Of a stretch of DNA of 64,000 nt, positions 42,596 to 61,351 are shown one piece after another. Made by a program: the position numbers and the translations under genes. The DNA comes from Streptomyces sp. ISL-1 (lineage in GTDB: Bacteria; Actinomycetota; Actinomycetes; Streptomycetales; Streptomycetaceae). The notes below the pieces were generated by a model that was given only the letters and a program-made list of their open reading frames with translations, was not told where the DNA came from and made no database searches. Within the stretch, counting starts at the first letter, position 1. Each line of letters opens with the position of its first letter. Location: NCBI RefSeq assembly GCF_018614585.1, contig NZ_JAGGOI010000029.1, forward strand, positions 186,001 to 250,000. Reading direction: 5' to 3'.

Positions 42596-43420
42596 TTACG
42601 GCCGTATGAACTGGGGGCCCATCGGGGGCAGCCGGAAGTTCGGGTCGGGCGCGTAGGCGGCCGCGGCGGCGGGCTGCGGGTAGCCGTAGGCCGACGGCGC
42701 GGCGGCCTGGGTCGCCGCGGGCTGCGGGTATCCATAGGCGGGCTGAGGGTATCCGTACCCCGGCTGCGCGCTGTCCGGTGTGCCCTGGGCCGGGGACGCG
42801 GTCTGCTGGGGCGCGGGCTGGGGGTATCCGTAGCCCGGCTGCGGCTCGGGCTGGGCCGACGGTTCCGCCGCCGCCTCCGCCTCGTCCACCGAGATGCCGA
42901 ACTCCGTGGCCAGACCCACCAGACCGGTCGGGTAGCCCTGCCCCACCGCGCGGAACTTCCAGCCCTCCCCGCGCCGGTACAGCTCGCCGCAGATGATCGC
43001 CGTCTCCTCGCCCGTCTCCGGCTTCACATGGAAGACGGTCAGCGGCTCGCCGTCGGTCAGGGCCGCGTCGTAGAGCAGTATCCGCAGATCCCGTACATGC
43101 TGGAAGGTGTCGCCGTCCGAGGACGCGGCGAGCACCACCTGATCGACCGACGCGTCGAGTGAGGAGAGATCCGCCTCGACCGTGTCCGTCAGATGCTCGG
43201 CGACACGCTTCTTGGGGAGCCGGCGCACCAGGCCCGACGGATGGCGCGGCTGGTTGTAGAAGACGAAGTCCTCGTCCGAGCGCACACGGCCGTCGGGGCC
43301 GAGCAGCAGGGCGGAGGCGTCCACATCGGGGACCCCTGCGCCCGGGGTCCAGCGCAGCACGGCCCGTACCGCCGTGACATCGAGAGGGACGTTCGAGCCC
43401 TTCAGCATCGCGTGCGTCAT
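42596..43420 (-). CDS. TerD family protein with Gly/Tyr/Pro-repeat tail (copy 3)
   Basis: 274-aa protein. Residues 1-180 form a divergent TerD domain (LRWTPGAGVPDVDASALLLG, DEDFVFYNQPRHPSGLV, GEETAIICGELYRRGEGWKF). The C-terminal ~95 residues are low-complexity with four GYGYPQP/AYGYPQP repeats, a likely disordered or adhesive tail. It is divergent from the HpcH/HpaI-lyase gene. Start 43420 (MTHAMLKG) is used; the in-frame ATG at 43429 is also acceptable. Confidence 0.9.
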   Translation of the reverse strand: MTHAMLKGSNVPLDVTAVRAVLRWTPGAGVPDVDASALLLGPDGRVRSDEDFVFYNQPRHPSGLVRRLPKKRVAEHLTDTVEADLSSLDASVDQVVLAASSDGDTFQHVRDLRILLYDAALTDGEPLTVFHVKPETGEETAIICGELYRRGEGWKFRAVGQGYPTGLVGLATEFGISVDEAEAAAEPSAQPEPQPGYGYPQPAPQQTASPAQGTPDSAQPGYGYPQPAYGYPQPAATQAAAPSAYGYPQPAAAAAYAPDPNFRLPPMGPQFIRP

Positions 43421-53058: not shown

Positions 53059-53133
53059 GGGTGCGTAGCTCAGTGGTAGAGCGCTGCTCTTACAAAGCAG
53101 ATGTCGGCGGTTCGAAACCGTCCGCGCCCACCA
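53059..53133 (+). tRNA. tRNA-Val (anticodon TAC)
   Basis: 75-nt cloverleaf. The acceptor stem is GGGTGCG/CGCGCCC (one G-T pair), the D-arm TAGCTCAGTGGTAGAGC, the anticodon arm CTGCTCTTACAAAGCAG with TAC, the T-arm CGGCGGTTCGAAACCGTCCG, then discriminator A and encoded CCA. It is the insertion site of the integrated element to its right; the tRNA is intact, as expected when the element carries the replacement 3' end. Confidence 0.95.
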
Positions 53134-53228: not shown

Positions 53229-54791
53229 TCAGGCAGCCGCCTCATCGGGAACATCGGTCTCCCCACTCGGCTGCTGGGCCGTGCTCTTGCGCGGCACCAG
53301 TTGCACCGGGGCCTCAGCCTGCGCCTTCTCGAACTGCGGGAGTACGGAGGTGTAGGTATCCGCGGTGAGCTGGTACGACGAGTGCCCGAGCATCGCCTGG
53401 ATCGCTTTCATGTGGACGCCGGCTGCCAGCGACAGCGTGGCAGCGCAGTGGCGCAGGTCGTGCAGCCGGATCGGGGGAAGGCCGTGCTTGCTCAGGAGGC
53501 GGTCGAAGACCTGACGCAGGTACTCGGGGTGGTAGGCCCGACCGTCCTCCCAGGTGAAGACCCGGCCAGTGTCATGCCAGATCTTCGGCTGCTCGCCGTT
53601 CCTGCGCTTAGCCTGCTGATGTTCCTCCCATTCCTTGCGCTCCTCCTGCTGGCGATCCTTCCAGAGTCGGAGCAGCTCGAGCGTCTGGGAGTCCAGCGAG
53701 ACGGTGCGGGCGCCGCTGTCGCTCTTGGGTGTGTCCTCCCATACCTCGTAGGACAGCGCGACCAGTTGCTCGCTGATGTGCACTACGCCTGCATCGAGGT
53801 TGGCTTCGCTCCAGGGCAGGCCGCATGCCTCGCCGCGGCGTACTCCCCGGAAGACCATGAGGTGGAACATGAGGTAGAGGCGGTGCTCGGCTACGGCGTC
53901 GAGGAACTGCCCGGTCTGTTCGGGCGTCCAGACCATGACCTTGCCGGGCTTCTTACCGGTCTTCCGCCACGCTTCGACACGTTCGGGCGTCCAGACGTGC
54001 GGCTTGGGCTTGCGGTAGCTCGGCAGGACAACGTCCTTGGTCCAGTTCTGCGAGATCAAGCGGGCTTTCACTGCGTCGTCGAGAGCGGCACTGAGCGTGT
54101 TGTTCATCCGCAGCTGTGTGCCTGCTCCGGTGATGTGGCGGGGCTTCTTCCTGGCTTCGCGTAGTGCTTCCTTGGCCTTGTTCCAAGCCTGTCGCAGCTC
54201 CCGGCGCTGCGGCTTGGCCGCTTGGCGCCACTTCTCGTGGGTGGTCCGCTCGGCAGCCAGTGCCGCCCTCGCTGCGTCGATGTTCTTCGCGTGCTGTTCG
54301 TTGCGTGCCCAGATGGCTTCGAACATTTCCTGTATCTGGCGGGTGCGAAGGTCGCGGAGCTTGATGTGGCCGATTGCGGGGATGAAGACGCGCTCGATGT
54401 AGTCCTCGTAGCCGAGGCGGGTGGACCGTTTCAGGTCTACTCGGGTGGCGATCCAGCGGCGCAGGTAGTCGGCCACGGTCTCGTCAGAGAGGACATCGAT
54501 GCCGTCTTGTGCGGCTTCCCAGACCTCTTTCGCTGCGTCGGCGGCTTGCTTTTGCGTGCGGTAGCCGCCCTTCTTGGCTCGCCTGCGCTTGCCGCCAGGG
54601 CCGGTTGGGAGTTCGAAGCTGTAGTACCAGGAGCCGTGGTCGCGCTTCTTGAGGAGAGTGCAGGCGGTCTCCAGGTAGCCGATCTTTGGTGTGCCGTCGG
54701 CGTTGAGGACCGGTTGTCCCTTCTTCGGGCCGCTCTTGTAGGTCAGTGGCCCCTTGCAGGTGCATCGCTTGTAGGTCTTGTCCTCGAACAC
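53229..54791 (-). CDS. int: Tyrosine recombinase (phage integrase)
   Basis: 520-aa site-specific recombinase. The N-terminal arm-binding region contains KTYKRCTCKG and a KKGGYRTQKQAADAAKEVW Arm-DNA-type segment. A core-binding SAM-like domain (TVADYLRRWIATRVDLKRST) is interrupted by a charged coiled coil. The catalytic domain carries RGVRRGEACGL, LHDLRHCAATL, LGHSS and the tyrosine in ADTYTSVLP. It points towards the tRNA gene 95 bp away, which it should use as attB. GTG 54791 with GAAGGGG about 8 nt upstream. Confidence 0.95.
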   Translation of the reverse strand: MFEDKTYKRCTCKGPLTYKSGPKKGQPVLNADGTPKIGYLETACTLLKKRDHGSWYYSFELPTGPGGKRRRAKKGGYRTQKQAADAAKEVWEAAQDGIDVLSDETVADYLRRWIATRVDLKRSTRLGYEDYIERVFIPAIGHIKLRDLRTRQIQEMFEAIWARNEQHAKNIDAARAALAAERTTHEKWRQAAKPQRRELRQAWNKAKEALREARKKPRHITGAGTQLRMNNTLSAALDDAVKARLISQNWTKDVVLPSYRKPKPHVWTPERVEAWRKTGKKPGKVMVWTPEQTGQFLDAVAEHRLYLMFHLMVFRGVRRGEACGLPWSEANLDAGVVHISEQLVALSYEVWEDTPKSDSGARTVSLDSQTLELLRLWKDRQQEERKEWEEHQQAKRRNGEQPKIWHDTGRVFTWEDGRAYHPEYLRQVFDRLLSKHGLPPIRLHDLRHCAATLSLAAGVHMKAIQAMLGHSSYQLTADTYTSVLPQFEKAQAEAPVQLVPRKSTAQQPSGETDVPDEAAA

Positions 54792-55177: not shown

Positions 55178-55299
55178 ACGCCTAGCGGGTGGCATATGCC
55201 CGCCTCATGGTGTGAGGCAACCTTTGCAGCAATGTGACCTACCTTGGTTACAGTTATATGTGTCACTGGGGGTCGGTCCAACGCGAGGGGAGCTGCCAG

Positions 55300-56352: not shown

Positions 56353-57981
56353 CTATCCAGCCGGCGGGAGGTGTGTCTCCGCGCTCGGATCCAGGAAGCG
56401 ATCGAAGAAGCCTTGGTGAGAGATGCCGCACGCGCGTGGGGGCGTCGGGATGTCACCGGCAATGAACAGGGCGATGACCAGGTCATGGCCTCCCGAAGCG
56501 CCCGCCAGGAGGGTTCGCTGTAGCAGCCGTTCCGCGCTTCGCAAGTGTCCACGGACGGTCTGTGGGTGTATGCCGAGCTCCGTTGCTGCGCAGTCGGCGC
56601 TGGCATTGTGGGCGAACCACACGCGGAGAGTTCGCCTCAGGTTCCGGTCATCCTGGTTCAGCGGAGCGAGCGTCATCTCAGCCCACGCTTTGGTCGAGGG
56701 CGTGGACAGCAACTCTTGGAGGCCTGCCTCGGCTTGGTCCGAGTTCTTGCGGCGACCAACTGGAGCTGCCGCGTCGATCTGGAGCGCCAGGTCGAGTACG
56801 GCGCAGGCCTGCACGTCGCTGAGGTCGAGTTGAAGCAGTTCAGCGGCCTTCTTGAAGCGGCTGGCGACGGTGTTGCGGTGCACATCGAGGACCTTGGCCA
56901 CTTTGGTCGTGGGAAACGCCAGGGCGAGGCGGACGGTGGTGAAGAGGTCGTCTCGTTCTGCCCGAGAGGCGTTGATGAGCGGCTGCAGGAATGCCTCTGC
57001 CCAGTGGTACGCCTCTTCCTGATCGATTACGGCCGTGAGCTGTGCGTGGCTGTTGTACTGCCACGCTCGCTCCGGTAGGTGCTGAGCGACGCTCAGAGCG
57101 CGGGCCGCGTCCCGATATGCGTCGGCCGTATGCGCGAGAGCTGCGGCCTCACTGATCCCGAGATAATGGCCGTACAGGGCCGCTGTGACCCTGCGCAGTG
57201 TGGCGTCGACCGACTCGCTGCCTTGTGCCGACGGGGGTTCGTTGTCTGCGGGCGCGACAACGATGAGATGGTTGTCGTAAGCCGGGCATGGGACCAGCAG
57301 AGCCCCGTCGATGAGTGCCGGTTCCGGAGTGGGCATTGTCACCCCCGGCGGCGATGGATTCCTGATCTCTTGCTGGATGATCTCTGCCGTGTAATGGCGG
57401 TCTCCTGTGGAGCAGTCCACGATGTAGACGCGGACGGTGTCGGCCAGCGCGCCGGATGCGAGGCTGGCGGCCGCACGGCGAGCAAACGTCGCCTGGCCGC
57501 TCATCAGCAGTTGCAAGATCGCCACATGCACTTCTGCGGCGGCTTCGTGTACCTGGTGCCAGGCATGCTCGAGACTGAGGGCTGGCAGGAGGAGCGCCAG
57601 GACATCGGCAACGCGGGAAACCGCCTCGGCTGCTTCTGGCGGATATGGCTTGGTCCGGGCCGCCGCCAGGACGGCATGGGGGGCCTCGGGTCCGATGGCG
57701 AACAGCCGGGCCTTCAACGCCCTCTCGTCCAGTACCGCCGACTTCAGCTCCCCGGCAGCCACACGCGAGATCTCATCCGCTGCTGGGGCAAGGACCTCGT
57801 GGGCAGCCTTTGATGAGGCGGCGAGAGGAAAGCCGTCGGAATTGGTGAGCATCACGTGGCCATCGACAACCTCCGCCAGCCATCCGACCAGGCGGCGCAG
57901 ATTGGGAGCTATGGCTTGGCGCCGGATCTGCTGAAGGAGCCTGCGCTCCAGCCGTTCCTGTCGCCTTTCATGGCCGACCAT
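56353..57981 (-). CDS. PucR-like helix-turn-helix regulator of the element
   Basis: 542-aa regulator. The N-terminal half is a sensor-like domain (VVDGHVMLTNSDGFPLAASS, HAWHQVHEAAAEVHVAILQL). Two PucR-type helix-turn-helix segments follow: TKVAKVLDVHRNTVASRFKK and CAATELGIHPQTVRGHLRSA. Regulators of this kind occur in streptomycete integrative elements and control element functions. ATG 57981 or GTG 57987 (GGGGG 8 nt upstream of the latter) is the start. Confidence 0.78.
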   Translation of the reverse strand: MVGHERRQERLERRLLQQIRRQAIAPNLRRLVGWLAEVVDGHVMLTNSDGFPLAASSKAAHEVLAPAADEISRVAAGELKSAVLDERALKARLFAIGPEAPHAVLAAARTKPYPPEAAEAVSRVADVLALLLPALSLEHAWHQVHEAAAEVHVAILQLLMSGQATFARRAAASLASGALADTVRVYIVDCSTGDRHYTAEIIQQEIRNPSPPGVTMPTPEPALIDGALLVPCPAYDNHLIVVAPADNEPPSAQGSESVDATLRRVTAALYGHYLGISEAAALAHTADAYRDAARALSVAQHLPERAWQYNSHAQLTAVIDQEEAYHWAEAFLQPLINASRAERDDLFTTVRLALAFPTTKVAKVLDVHRNTVASRFKKAAELLQLDLSDVQACAVLDLALQIDAAAPVGRRKNSDQAEAGLQELLSTPSTKAWAEMTLAPLNQDDRNLRRTLRVWFAHNASADCAATELGIHPQTVRGHLRSAERLLQRTLLAGASGGHDLVIALFIAGDIPTPPRACGISHQGFFDRFLDPSAETHLPPAG

Positions 57982-58514
57982 GCACACCGCGGGCACCCCC
58001 AGACGCCGCTTGGACCGAGCAGCAGTGCGGCGGGGCCCACGTGGGGTAAGCGCCGTGCACCCGCGCGGGCGGCGCCAGTGGGGTGGCGCCAGCGGCAGAT
58101 TGAACGTCAACTTTGCGCCATCATCAAAATATTTGCCCGAGTACATGTCAACGTCACCAAAACCACGGGGCTTTGAGGGCGTGACGAACGCGTCAGAGGG
58201 TAGGTGGGCCGGTTTACCTGCATAGATACATCAAGCCACTTGACGTTCGGAGAGCCGACGCATGGCGGGGAGCCTCCACGTTCGACCGACAACGGTCGTC
58301 TTTGCTGGTGTGCGCCGCGATAAGGAGTGGTCCATGCACTGTGCACCGGGAGTCAGCACCATGGCTGGTTTCTGGCTAGCGTCGCCTACGCCGTCGAAGC
58401 GCGGATTCCGCTTACCGCGCAGGTCAGCTTGCGCACGCACGCGCAGACCACCCCGACGACGCGATGACCGGCTGACGTGGAGCGCGGACGCCGGTCTCTT
58501 ACGGGAGGAATGGC
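57982..58514. other. Gene-free divergent region in the element
   Basis: 533 bp without a supported gene. It contains the candidate minus-strand promoter at 58123-58151, a slightly AT-richer stretch at 58115-58170, and the GGGAGGAA ribosome site of the 63-aa gene at its right end. Confidence 0.5.
58123..58151 (-). promoter_or_regulatory. Candidate promoter of PucR-like gene
   Basis: On the minus strand TTGACA (58151-58146), a 17-bp spacer and TTTGAT (58128-58123). The -35 is perfect; the -10 is one base off TANNNT. It gives a leader of about 135 nt. Confidence 0.45.
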
Positions 58515-58706
58515 ATGGCCGAGCTCGATCTGGAACGCGTCGCCGCACTGTCGAAGGAGCCCTCGCGCGTACTCAATCCCGACATGGCGCCGGCGGATGC
58601 GGCGAGAGCTGCGCGCATGGCCGTGGACCTGCTCGCCGTGATGCCGGACTCGGAGAAGCCCGTGCGGAGGCTGGCAGGTGAGGACGATGGCGCTTCCTCC
58701 CCATAG
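58515..58706 (+). CDS. Small hypothetical protein of the element
   Basis: 63-aa protein, MAELDLERVAALSKEPSRVL, with an Ala-rich helix (DMAPADAARAARMAVDLLAV). No known family. The main support is a strong ribosome site (GGGAGGAA, 5 nt before the ATG). Codon third positions are GC-rich like a real gene. Confidence 0.5.
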   Translation: MAELDLERVAALSKEPSRVLNPDMAPADAARAARMAVDLLAVMPDSEKPVRRLAGEDDGASSP

Positions 58707-58895
58707 ATAGATGACATTGTTGAAGGCGTGATGTACGTTCGTGACGCCGGCCGGGGACATCTGTCGCAGCGTCCCAACCGGCAGCGCCGTGCTGTACGGC
58801 GGCGCCCTTCCCTGCTCCTCGCGGGTGGCCGACCCCCCGCGCCCCGCCCGCGAGGAGCTGGCCGCAATCGGTGCGGTCGTTGGGGTGCGTGATGG

Positions 58896-58939
58896 GAGTC
58901 GAGCCCGTCGCGGTCGTGAGACCGCGGCGGGCTCGACTC
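58896..58939. other. Long near-perfect hairpin
   Basis: 20-bp arms GAGTCGAGCCCGTCGCGGTC / GACCGCGGCGGGCTCGACTC with loop GTGA and a single G-T pair. No U tract follows, so it may be a structured RNA or a protein site rather than a terminator. Confidence 0.6.
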
Positions 58940-59023
58940 GTATCCGGGTGCCGTGCGGCTCCCGGCGCCCTTGCATCCGCCTTCCCCTCCCGGCGGCCGG
59001 ACGAGTCGCCGGAGAAGTCCGGT

Positions 59024-59043
59024 GAATTCCAAATTTGGAATTC
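59024..59043. promoter_or_regulatory. 20-bp perfect AT-rich palindrome
   Basis: GAATTCCAAATTTGGAATTC, 119 bp before the parB-like start, followed by another GAATTCC at 59056. A candidate operator or centromere-like site for the adjacent ParB. Confidence 0.65.
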
Positions 59044-59055
59044 GGAAATTAAAAG

Positions 59056-59098
59056 GAATTCCCACTTGCTTTAGAGGTGTATGCGATTAAGATATAAG
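59056..59098 (+). promoter_or_regulatory. AT-rich promoter element, copy 1 (parB-like gene)
   Basis: Ordered blocks GAATTCC (59056), TAGAGGTGTA (59072) and TAAGATATAAG (59088). Within it TTGCTT (59066-59071), a 16-bp spacer and TAAGAT form a good promoter. The same blocks recur before the gene at 60455. Confidence 0.65.
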
Positions 59099-59162
59099 TG
59101 TAAGAACAAAGGGAAAACCACACAGGACGGTTTTCCTCGGAATTAAGGAAGGCGCGGGAGAA

Positions 59163-60284
59163 ATGTTCACGAACCTCAAGATTGAAGAGATCGCCCCCAA
59201 CCCCGACCAGCCCCGTAAGTTCTTCGACGAGGAGGCGCACGAGGAGCTGAAGGGCAGCATCACGGAGAACGGCCTCCTTCAGCCGGTCGTTGTTCGCCCG
59301 GTCGAGGGTGCCAAGGTCCCGTACATGCTGATCGCGGGCGAGCGCCGGTGGAGGGCTTGCAAGGCGGCCGGCCTGGAGGTCGTCCCGGCCAAGGTCATCG
59401 AGGGTGCCAGCGAGGAGCAGGCGTACGTCCTCAGCATCGCTGAGAACGTAAACCGTGCGGACATGACGATCATGGAGGAGGCCGGTGCGTACGCCGACCT
59501 CAAGGCCGCCGGATGGACCCCGGCGAAGATCGCCAAGCAGTTCGGCAAGACGGAGACGCACATCACGTGGCGGCTGGGTCTGCTGACCCTCCGCCCGGAA
59601 GTGGCGGAGATGGTCGACAAGGGGCAGATCAAGAACAACCTGGCCTGGCACATCGCCCAGCTCAGCCCGGCGAACCAGATGGTGGCGGCCATGCGGTACG
59701 TGCGCGGCGACTTCGACAGCGAGGCCGAGGCGCAGCACTTCGCCAACGGCCTCAAGATGATGGAGCAGCAGACCTCCCTTACCAACGAGAAGGCACCGAC
59801 GGCCGAGGAGGAGGACAAGCGCAAGAAGGCCAAGGCCAAGGCGAAGGATGGGCTCGGCAGGGCCGAGGAGGTCCTGATCCCGCTGCTGGAGGAGCTGGCG
59901 GAGAAGAAGCCCGAAGACCTGGCCGTCATCCTGGGCGACGACCTCGCCCGCCACCTGCGGGTCGTCGGCCGCCTCCACGCCAAGGTTCAGATGGTTCGGA
60001 ACCTGCTGAGCAAGGCCCAGGGCATCCAGCGGGCCATGGAGCAGGAGTTCAACAAGGCGGCCGTCGAGGTCCAGCAGGAGGCGGCGGCGAAGAAGGGCGA
60101 AGAGGCGGCGAAGTCCGAGGCGGCCGAGGCTGAGGAGCCCGAGGCCAAGGCGGCGGCTAAGCCGCAGCCCACGGAGAAGAAGGCAGCTGCGAAGCCCGCG
60201 GCCCCGAAGCCCGCGGCGGCCACCACCTCCAAGGCCCCGGCGCGGCGGACGCCCGCCAAGAAGGCCGAAGCTGCGGCGAAGTAG
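59163..60284 (+). CDS. ParB/RepB/Spo0J family protein with H1-like tail
   Basis: 373-aa DNA-binding protein. The ParB N-terminal domain shows IAPNPDQPRKFFDEEAHEEL, LLQPVVVRPV, the CTP/Arg patch AGERRWRACKAAGLEVVPAK and SIAENVNRADMTIMEEAGAY. A helix-turn-helix (TPAKIAKQFGKTETHITWRL) follows near residue 120. The last ~70 residues are Ala/Lys/Pro repeats (KKAAAKPAAPKPAAATTSKA) like histone H1. No parA gene is adjacent. It may regulate or package element DNA rather than partition it. Ribosome site GGGAG before the ATG. Confidence 0.9.
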   Translation: MFTNLKIEEIAPNPDQPRKFFDEEAHEELKGSITENGLLQPVVVRPVEGAKVPYMLIAGERRWRACKAAGLEVVPAKVIEGASEEQAYVLSIAENVNRADMTIMEEAGAYADLKAAGWTPAKIAKQFGKTETHITWRLGLLTLRPEVAEMVDKGQIKNNLAWHIAQLSPANQMVAAMRYVRGDFDSEAEAQHFANGLKMMEQQTSLTNEKAPTAEEEDKRKKAKAKAKDGLGRAEEVLIPLLEELAEKKPEDLAVILGDDLARHLRVVGRLHAKVQMVRNLLSKAQGIQRAMEQEFNKAAVEVQQEAAAKKGEEAAKSEAAEAEEPEAKAAAKPQPTEKKAAAKPAAPKPAAATTSKAPARRTPAKKAEAAAK

Positions 60285-60287
60285 AGC

Positions 60288-60317
60288 AGAGGGGGCGCGG
60301 CGGTGGCCGCGCCCTCT
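60288..60317 (+). terminator. Terminator after parB-like gene
   Basis: Stem AGAGGGGGCGCGGC / GCCGCGCCCTCT with one bulge, then TCTT. Confidence 0.7.
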
Positions 60318-60388
60318 CTTCCCTCCAGGGCGAAGCGTGGGCGCGGCCGGGCTTCCGGCGGCGCCCGCTTTATTTCCAATTTGCCTCC

Positions 60389-60430
60389 GAATTCCATGTT
60401 AATAGAGCAGTAATTGTCATAAGATATAAG
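60389..60430 (+). promoter_or_regulatory. AT-rich promoter element, copy 2
   Basis: GAATTCC (60389), TAGAGCAGTA (60403) and TAAGATATAAG (60420) repeat copy 1 in order and spacing (31 versus 32 bp overall). TAAGAT is the likely -10. The start codon follows only 24 nt later with GGAAAGGAA between. Confidence 0.65.
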
Positions 60431-60454
60431 CAAGAGTAACGGAAAGGAATTACG

Positions 60455-60677
60455 GTGGCGATTGAATTTCAGGGCAAGGTCTGGACCCTCGCATCGGATG
60501 ACGGCTACGCCAACCCCCGGGGGCCCGGTCGCCCAGCTCACCGTGGAGGCGGTCAGCGAGGCCAAAAAGGCCCACGAGGAGCGGCGGCACCTGGACTGCG
60601 TGAACTGGACCCACGCCGCGAACTGGATGCTGGAAGGGTTCTGGATAACGGATTCCAGCGAGGCGTCCGGCCAATGA
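60455..60677 (+). CDS. Small element protein with apparent frameshift
   Basis: GTG 60455 has an excellent ribosome site (GGAAAGGAA) and reads MAIEFQGKVWTLASDDGYAN. After a CCCCCGGGGG run at 60514-60523 this frame becomes unlike protein. The +1 frame continues plausibly as GGPVAQLTVEAVSEAKKAHE to WITDSSEASGQ and stops at 60677. Removing one C restores a single ~73-aa protein. It is a sequencing error, a mutation or, less likely, programmed shifting. No family recognised. Confidence 0.55.
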
Positions 60678-60682
60678 GCGCC

Positions 60683-60712
60683 GGTGGGGGCGCGGCGCTG
60701 CGCGCCCCCACC
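60683..60712 (+). terminator. Terminator after small element gene
   Basis: 12-bp perfect arms GGTGGGGGCGCG / CGCGCCCCCACC, 6-nt loop. Confidence 0.75.
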
Positions 60713-60898
60713 ACTTCCGGAGCAGTGCCCGCTCCGGTGGGCGTCGAGCCGTGCGCGCACGGCGGCGCGCTCTCCCTGCGCGCACGGTGCCGCTCAGGTC
60801 CTTGCTGGCCCGAGCGGGGCGGCATCATCGGTCACCCGGGCCCGCCGGCGGCAGCGTCGACGGGCCCGGCGTCTGAGCACCACGAAAGGAATGGCCAA

Positions 60899-61312: not shown

Positions 61313-61351
61313 GCGTCGGAACCACTACCTAAAGATAGGTGACATGATTCC

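Follow-up and report, generated by a model that had tools for sequence, protein, structure and literature searches.

The 11-nucleotide sequence TAAGATATAAG probably forms the core of several promoters belonging to one family of temperate Streptomyces prophages and served by a common trans-acting factor of the phage. The window (the whole stretch of 64,000 nucleotides analysed here, G000:C23:186001-250000) contains two copies, one upstream of a parB-like gene (site 1) and one upstream of the small gene that follows it (site 2). The initial annotation had proposed a shared control element for these two genes, read by a common regulator or an alternative sigma factor. That the two genes share such an element is supported by comparison with related prophages, in which the same 11-mer is also found before three more classes of genes. 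The two copies, which could have been a coincidence, would then belong to a well-defined group of promoters specific to these prophages and spread over many Streptomyces species. The features under discussion are collected in Table 1.

Table 1. Features of the window and positions of the second repeat (motif 2) in the prophage of genome G006
Feature	Position	Strand	Remark
Tyrosine integrase of the prophage	53229..54791	-	next to tRNA-Val (53059-53133)
Motif 2 copy GGTAGGTCACATT	55231..55243	-	2 mismatches; between HTH_17 gene and recombinase-like gene
Motif 2 copy GATAGATGACATT	58706..58718	+	1 mismatch; at end of small ORF 58515-58706
20 bp perfect palindrome GAATTCCAAATTTGGAATTC	59024..59043	.	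upstream of site 1
Site 1, proposed -35 TTGCTT	59066..59071	+	from sequence; 16 bp before TAAGAT
Site 1, core TAAGATATAAG	59088..59098	+	proposed -10 TAAGAT (59088-59093) plus ATAAG; upstream of parB
Inverted repeat GGAAAACC..GGTTTTCC	59112..59136	+	proposed parB leader; listed from the opposite strand in the terminator scan
parB-like gene	59163..60284	+	first gene behind site 1; ParB_N and HTH_ParB domains
GC-rich inverted repeats between parB and site 2	60285..60369	+	recognized by eye; possible terminator region
Site 2, core TAAGATATAAG	60420..60430	+	weak -35-like GTTAAT (60398-60403)
Small gene behind site 2	60455..60677	+	two pieces in different frames, 60455-60523 and 60522-60674
Motif 2 copy GATAGGTGACATG	61334..61346	+	1 mismatch; between DUF488-like and DAM-like genes
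Motif 2 in G006	10311, 12547, 56445, 60469, 64901	+	concatenated L056-L058 and L235 (G006 620001-700000)
Motif 2 in G006	7516	-	same concatenate

The prophage adjoins a tRNA-Val gene. Its genes follow in the order integrase (minus strand), HTH_17 gene, recombinase-like gene, PucR-type HTH gene (minus strand), parB, small gene, DUF488-like gene (an assignment resting on a weak match), DAM-like/GNAT gene, ParB-like gene, terS and terL. The sequence of the parB product is akin to Spo0J/ParB structures and, more weakly, to KorB. A terminator scan of 58900-60800 returned two candidates, one of them within the GC-rich repeats behind parB, against 2.2 expected, which is not above chance.

According to the initial annotation, the shared element consists of three blocks, with GAATTCC at 59056 and 60389, TAGAGnnGTA at 59072 and 60403, and the 11-mer at 59088 and 60420. 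All of these strings are present in the window as described and their overall spacing is indeed 32 and 31 bp, the distance from the second to the third block being 16 at site 1 and 17 at site 2. As a conserved unit, the three-block element does not hold in relatives, where only the 11-mer is general. Among 26 distinct parB-type sites the exact 11-mer occurs in 25, GAATTCC in six and TAGAGnnGTA in four near the corresponding place; for eight second-site sequences these numbers are seven, two and one. GAATTCC and TAGAGnnGTA are thus not supported as parts of the element. The shorter string GAATTC is found somewhere between -60 and -15 in 25 of the 26 parB-type sites, although its place varies. 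In the window itself GAATTCC has nine matches (3.7 expected) and TAGAGnnGTA three (0.12 expected), one of which is at 43071. When 295 genomes were searched with the combined pattern TAGAGNNGTAN{7,9}TAAGATATAAG, site 2 of the window alone was matched, the gap of site 1 (6) lying outside the range. The first search of viral contigs with the full three-block pattern gave no match within a gap range that likewise excluded the spacing of site 1, and a further search with this restriction matched site 2 only.

The 11-mer is rare and nearly confined to this prophage family. At up to two mismatches it occurs at two places in the window and at none in the following 48 kb. Two such matches are not rare in themselves (4 of 100 shuffles); two exact copies are, with an expectation of 1.6e-5 per 64 kb and 0.002 per 7.6 Mb under a third-order Markov model trained on positions 1-53000 of the window. 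The 7.6 Mb genome to which the window belongs has three exact copies, all in pieces of the parB prophage, the third (C12:45742) being located in its right half, which is displaced. A copy with one mismatch, TAAGATATAAC, is found at L222:17498. In 246 Streptomyces genomes there are 15 exact 11-mers, of which 13 fall in the four genomes that carry the parB prophage (three in G000, four in G006, two in G030 and four in G117) and two in the other 242, while the reversed motif, used as a control, has four copies. Carriers are defined here by a parB at least 91% identical and make up 4 of 295 sampled genomes, including that of the window. Further copies in related elements, the lack of which would have counted against the element according to the initial annotation, are numerous.

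Homologues of the parB gene with 77-91% identity are present in 18 Streptomyces or Streptantibioticus records, with the distant MAG matches L053-L055 left out. Close parB homologues have the 11-mer within 300 bp upstream in all 21 loci examined, of which 20 are distinct; one copy reads TAGGATATAAG. The consensus upstream of parB is ACTTGctTTnGcGGTaTnnGCnATTAAGATATAAGtGTAAG. In many parB-type sites a dyad, TGGCGGTATTCGCCA, is present between the -35 and -10 regions and might serve as an additional operator; the window has a degenerate version of it (TAGAGGTGTATGCGA). A total of 26 distant homologues were also taken (L009-L034, 34-43% identity), with the upstream stretch seen for 11. One of these 11 (L020) carries TCAGATATAAG. 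Six (L022, L024, L026, L030, L033 and L034) have another AT-rich promoter-like string, GCATATAGAATA (or T as the last base), followed by the Shine-Dalgarno-like CTCTTGGAG. In viral contigs the parB-type site is found on one contig (L077). One scan gave 33 matches, from which the 13 with a GC content of at least 55% were read (11 of parB type plus L092 and L096) and the 20 with lower GC content were left out. In the scan for the second-site type, L088 alone had a GC content of at least 55% among the loci listed.

Equivalents of site 2 comprise seven other distinct sequences, each preceding a small gene. Among the 21 parB loci, six carry site 2 (the window, L041, L044, L045, L046 and L049), and in all of them the small gene lies between parB and the DUF488-like gene. 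L052 has the small gene with the variant TAAGATTATAA in place of the site, and the other loci have neither the small gene nor a site 2 within two mismatches of the 11-mer. The usual second-site small-gene family is present in ten loci, two of which (L052 and L077) are without site 2 within one mismatch. The small gene of the window is unrelated to this family and has no relative among the loci compared. Its frame break lies near a C/G run and may reflect a sequencing slip or a broken gene. An exchangeable gene with its own promoter is termed a moron, and site 2 with its exchangeable small gene resembles one.

The prophage of G006 carries four copies of the 11-mer, all of them intergenic and oriented with the next gene. 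One precedes parB. The R1 copy stands before a gene for a 67-amino-acid protein, with recT and a PD-(D/E)XK nuclease gene further downstream; the R2 copy stands before a gene for a 92-amino-acid protein, with genes for a C5 methylase and a WhiB-like protein further downstream; and the E copy precedes the gene for a 30-amino-acid Cys/Gly-rich peptide. When relatives of the 92-amino-acid gene were found by protein similarity, the site was present in nine of nine loci, always exact. For recT relatives, also found by protein, the R1 site is present with at most one mismatch in 14 of 16 loci, with the variants TAAGATATATG, TAAGATATAGG and TAAAATATAAG; the two loci without sites are 34% identical and have 51% GC. 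Thirteen of the 14 R1-bearing loci also have the R2 site, and the remaining one, L253, stops short of where it would be expected. The two protein-based samples share most of their contigs. That recT, the methylase and the WhiB-like regulator stand behind or near sites suggests that the genes linked to the 11-mer form an early regulon. A single further site precedes an 84-amino-acid ORF on the viral contig L096 (class F).

Some other genes were seen in these regions. The Cys/Gly-rich peptide of about 30 residues, GGFCGGCGHAGCGGRR, directly follows the E-class site at L235:6724, L064:302 and L092:3131 (minus strand), the last being recognized by eye. The right-end gene stretch encodes a WhiB-like regulator (L235:3642-4052, PHROG match) and an HU-like protein (L235:4906-5394, recognized by eye). 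Between the structural and right-end regions of the G006 prophage (L057:4069-10234) there are PbeA- and PbeC-type defence genes and a type II methyltransferase gene.

Sites were collected at no more than one mismatch to the 11-mer. They form five classes, parB type (S1, 26), second-site type (S2, 8), R1 (14), R2 (15) and E (4), with 67 distinct sequences in total; the single case F makes 68, and L223 and L020, regarded as chance or other matches, were excluded. As a consequence of this collection rule, the identity of the 11-mer within classes is partly built in, while the protein-based counts are unaffected. In the five classes the mean column identity is 0.95-1.00 for the 11-mer compared with 0.73-0.86 for the 18 bp spacer. 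For R1 the contrast is small (0.948 for the 11-mer, 0.938 for the -35 region and 0.924 far upstream) and the 11-mer is exact in just 6 of 14 sites, and for R2 the -35 region (0.967) nearly equals the 11-mer (0.988).

The -10 form TAnnnT is present in 68 of 68 sites, again partly built in by the collection rule, and T at -21 has a class-balanced frequency of 1.00. TTG at -22, which corresponds to a 16 bp spacer to TAAGAT, occurs in 46 of 68 sites: in all of S1 (26/26), R2 (15/15), E (4/4) and F (1/1), and in none of S2 (0/8) and R1 (0/14). In R2 the -35 hexamer is TTGACG. Together, TAnnnT and TTG fit a sigma70-type promoter without a special sigma factor, whereas the conserved ATAAG after the -10 seems to exceed what a plain sigma70 promoter requires. 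A generic sigma70 scan (9 of 12 positions) had no match at either site of the window. A stable hairpin after the 11-mer is clear only in R2 (median z -3.1, 14 of 15 below -1), the stems of which were set out of register by the MAFFT alignment; the medians of the other classes range from -1.1 to +0.5, and the signal of the parB class is weak (-0.7). Being clear only in R2, a general leader hairpin was dropped as a part of the element.

In the model that we favour, the promoter set would serve parB, the small gene that in some prophages separates parB from the next gene, and the stretches of early/replication genes at the right end. The -10 hexamer would be TAAGAT, with a TTG-containing or weaker -35 located 16 bp upstream, and ATAAG would lie just before the transcript start. 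We infer that ATAAG is conserved because something in addition to the sigma factor recognizes it; a single phage trans-acting factor shared by all of the promoters would be the simplest case. Such a factor appears likelier than host sigma alone because the -35 and the spacer vary between classes while ATAAG largely stays. No candidate for it was identified. Part of the likeness between classes could stem from promoter duplication.

A second repeat, motif 2, bears on how the 11-mer is to be read. In a k-mer scan of the G006 prophage, AGATAGGTGACATT came up with five copies; as a positive control, the scan of phiC31 (AJ006589) yields the palindromic repeat TACTCACGTGAGTA in 15 copies. With mismatches allowed, motif 2 becomes GATAGGT(G/C)ACATTnTTgaa (also written GATAGGTGACATT and GATAGGTGACATTnTTgaa) and is asymmetric. 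In G006 the five plus-strand copies are oriented with the next gene and one copy is reversed. They are located in gaps between genes, except for one that lies 32 nt inside a called ORF of uncertain start. A copy follows the first small gene of R1 and of R2, 326 and 352 bp beyond the respective 11-mer. In 18 parB loci, at up to two mismatches, motif 2 is found upstream of parB in 17 (L050: 3 kb upstream) and behind the DUF488-like gene in 15, and 17 of the loci have a reversed copy close to where the recombinase-like gene starts. Exact copies number ten in the four prophage genomes and zero in 16 other genomes of the genus, nine of which have copies with one mismatch. The orientation with transcription and the placement in gaps are suggestive of stoperators. 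L5-type repressors are described as binding asymmetric sites with an orientation that follows transcription (PMC9283540), and these sites stand at promoters and in gene gaps (PMC9283540, PMC10276819).

The 11-mer itself might be an asymmetric operator for an immunity repressor that overlaps the promoters, as for the L5-type repressors of mycobacteriophages. It is asymmetric, has a single orientation relative to the next gene and is present in several copies per prophage; for L5-type repressors, asymmetric sites oriented with transcription are reported (PMC9283540). All four copies in G006, however, directly precede a gene and none lies in another kind of gap, and GATAGGTGACATT fits the stoperator pattern better. 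The candidate repressor is the XRE-like protein encoded opposite parB. Its gene was found in 29 of 34 stretches, several of which duplicate the same genome, and is split between two frames in L050. It was not found in the stretches of the window, L035, L046, L093 (where the DNA upstream of the site extends for only 0.3 kb) and the low-GC contig L070, which is unrelated. The window, L035 and L046 nevertheless keep an intact 11-mer. In a profile search of the PDB the XRE-like protein matches EspR (E 0.024) and the immunity repressor 8bny (E 0.53) weakly, and its AlphaFold2 model is poor (mean pLDDT 54.6). We consider an operator function of the 11-mer possible but unlikely. In the window (56353-58146) and in L035 a PucR-type HTH gene occupies the place where most relatives have the XRE-like gene and a hydrophobic partner protein.

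Both repeats might instead act in series. An extended -10 with the sequence TAAGATATAAG would drive several operons led by small genes, and GATAGGTGACATTnTTgaa downstream would block elongation and so silence the remainder of each operon in lysogens. Lysogens would then express the first small genes and keep the replication genes silent. We put this scheme forward tentatively and regard it as rather doubtful.

It is improbable that TAAGATATAAG is read by an RNA polymerase of phage-encoded or phage-modified specificity, through a sigma factor or a WhiB-like partner. Conservation of the bases that follow the -10 extends to all classes, unlike the -35, which varies between them, and G006 has a WhiB-like gene in its right-end stretch; on the other hand, no sigma-like match was found among the G006 prophage proteins scanned, which are part of the full set, and the TTG/TAnnnT arrangement resembles that of ordinary sigma70 promoters. 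To a similarly low degree we credit the idea that these are ordinary host sigma-HrdB promoters, alike only through duplication of one promoter by the phage. The S1 and E sites are similar across the whole stretch from -35 to -10, but in R1, R2 and S2 the similarity hardly extends past the 11-mer and a few preceding bases, and in S1, S2 and R2 the 11-mer is near-invariant while the flanks diverge.

Across 53 to 112 kb, the two AT-rich stretches that contain the 11-mer sites are the only ones to reach 60% A+T over 60 bp, and the element has no other AT-rich island within the window or the next 48 kb. Lsr2 is described as binding AT-rich DNA and silencing foreign genes in actinobacteria. Landing sites for host Lsr2-type silencers, kept for their composition and not as promoters, are nonetheless a very unlikely explanation, as selection for composition would not by itself preserve an 11-nucleotide sequence and a constant -35 offset across many loci; silencing by Lsr2 could act on top of the promoters. 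Least credible is that the 11-mer is the binding site of the prophage ParB, acting as a global autoregulator in the manner of KorB: site 1 is followed first by parB, whose product is weakly KorB-like in sequence, but ParB and KorB operator sites are palindromic and the 11-mer is not.

Compared with known systems, the promoter family that we propose recalls phiC31, also a temperate Streptomyces phage, in having one short repeat at many control points. The 15-copy phiC31 repeat TACTCACGTGAGTA, which we take to be the CIS repressor site, is palindromic, whereas TAAGATATAAG is not its own reverse complement and is absent from phiC31 within two mismatches (AJ006589, a record in which early promoters are not annotated). 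The cluster A mycobacteriophages of L5 type offer a parallel for motif 2, which is likewise asymmetric, transcription-oriented and placed in gene gaps. The 11-mer is asymmetric and oriented in the same way (4/4 in G006) but is seen only directly before genes, and the match of the XRE-like candidate to 8bny is too weak to establish homology with an L5-type repressor. A repressor-stoperator system has also been described for Streptomyces phage R4. The TAnnnT -10, together with the TTGACG -35 and 16 bp spacer of R2, is reminiscent of Streptomyces HrdB (sigma70) promoters; relative to the HrdB consensus, the 11-mer sites differ in the conserved ATAAG after the -10 and in their class-dependent -35 regions.

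No match of at least 60% identity to ParB, TerL or RecT was found among 50,697 phage records. In the portions of the literature that were searchable, TAAGATATAAG occurs in work on Bacillus degQ and no other occurrence was found; for GATAGGTGACA none of the matches listed concerns phages by its title. Phage-specific promoter families and stoperators are known kinds of elements, but as far as searched the 11-mer set is undescribed, as would be a pairing of the 11-mer with motif 2 as a control system in Streptomyces phages. To our knowledge, early-gene control in temperate Streptomyces phages is understood in detail for only a few phages. Should motif 2 be a stoperator, the pair would provide a compact on/off logic and a means of finding related prophages from sequence only.

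The prophage of the window looks damaged, being split over two contigs and having its small gene in two frames. Its left half is on C23 and its right half on C12 of the same genome. The left part on C23 contains about 20 kb of mostly other DNA, which points to either a rearrangement or the assembly. In G117, two left ends of parB-type prophages (G117:C1:5589280 and 5687663) lie about 98 kb apart in one genome.
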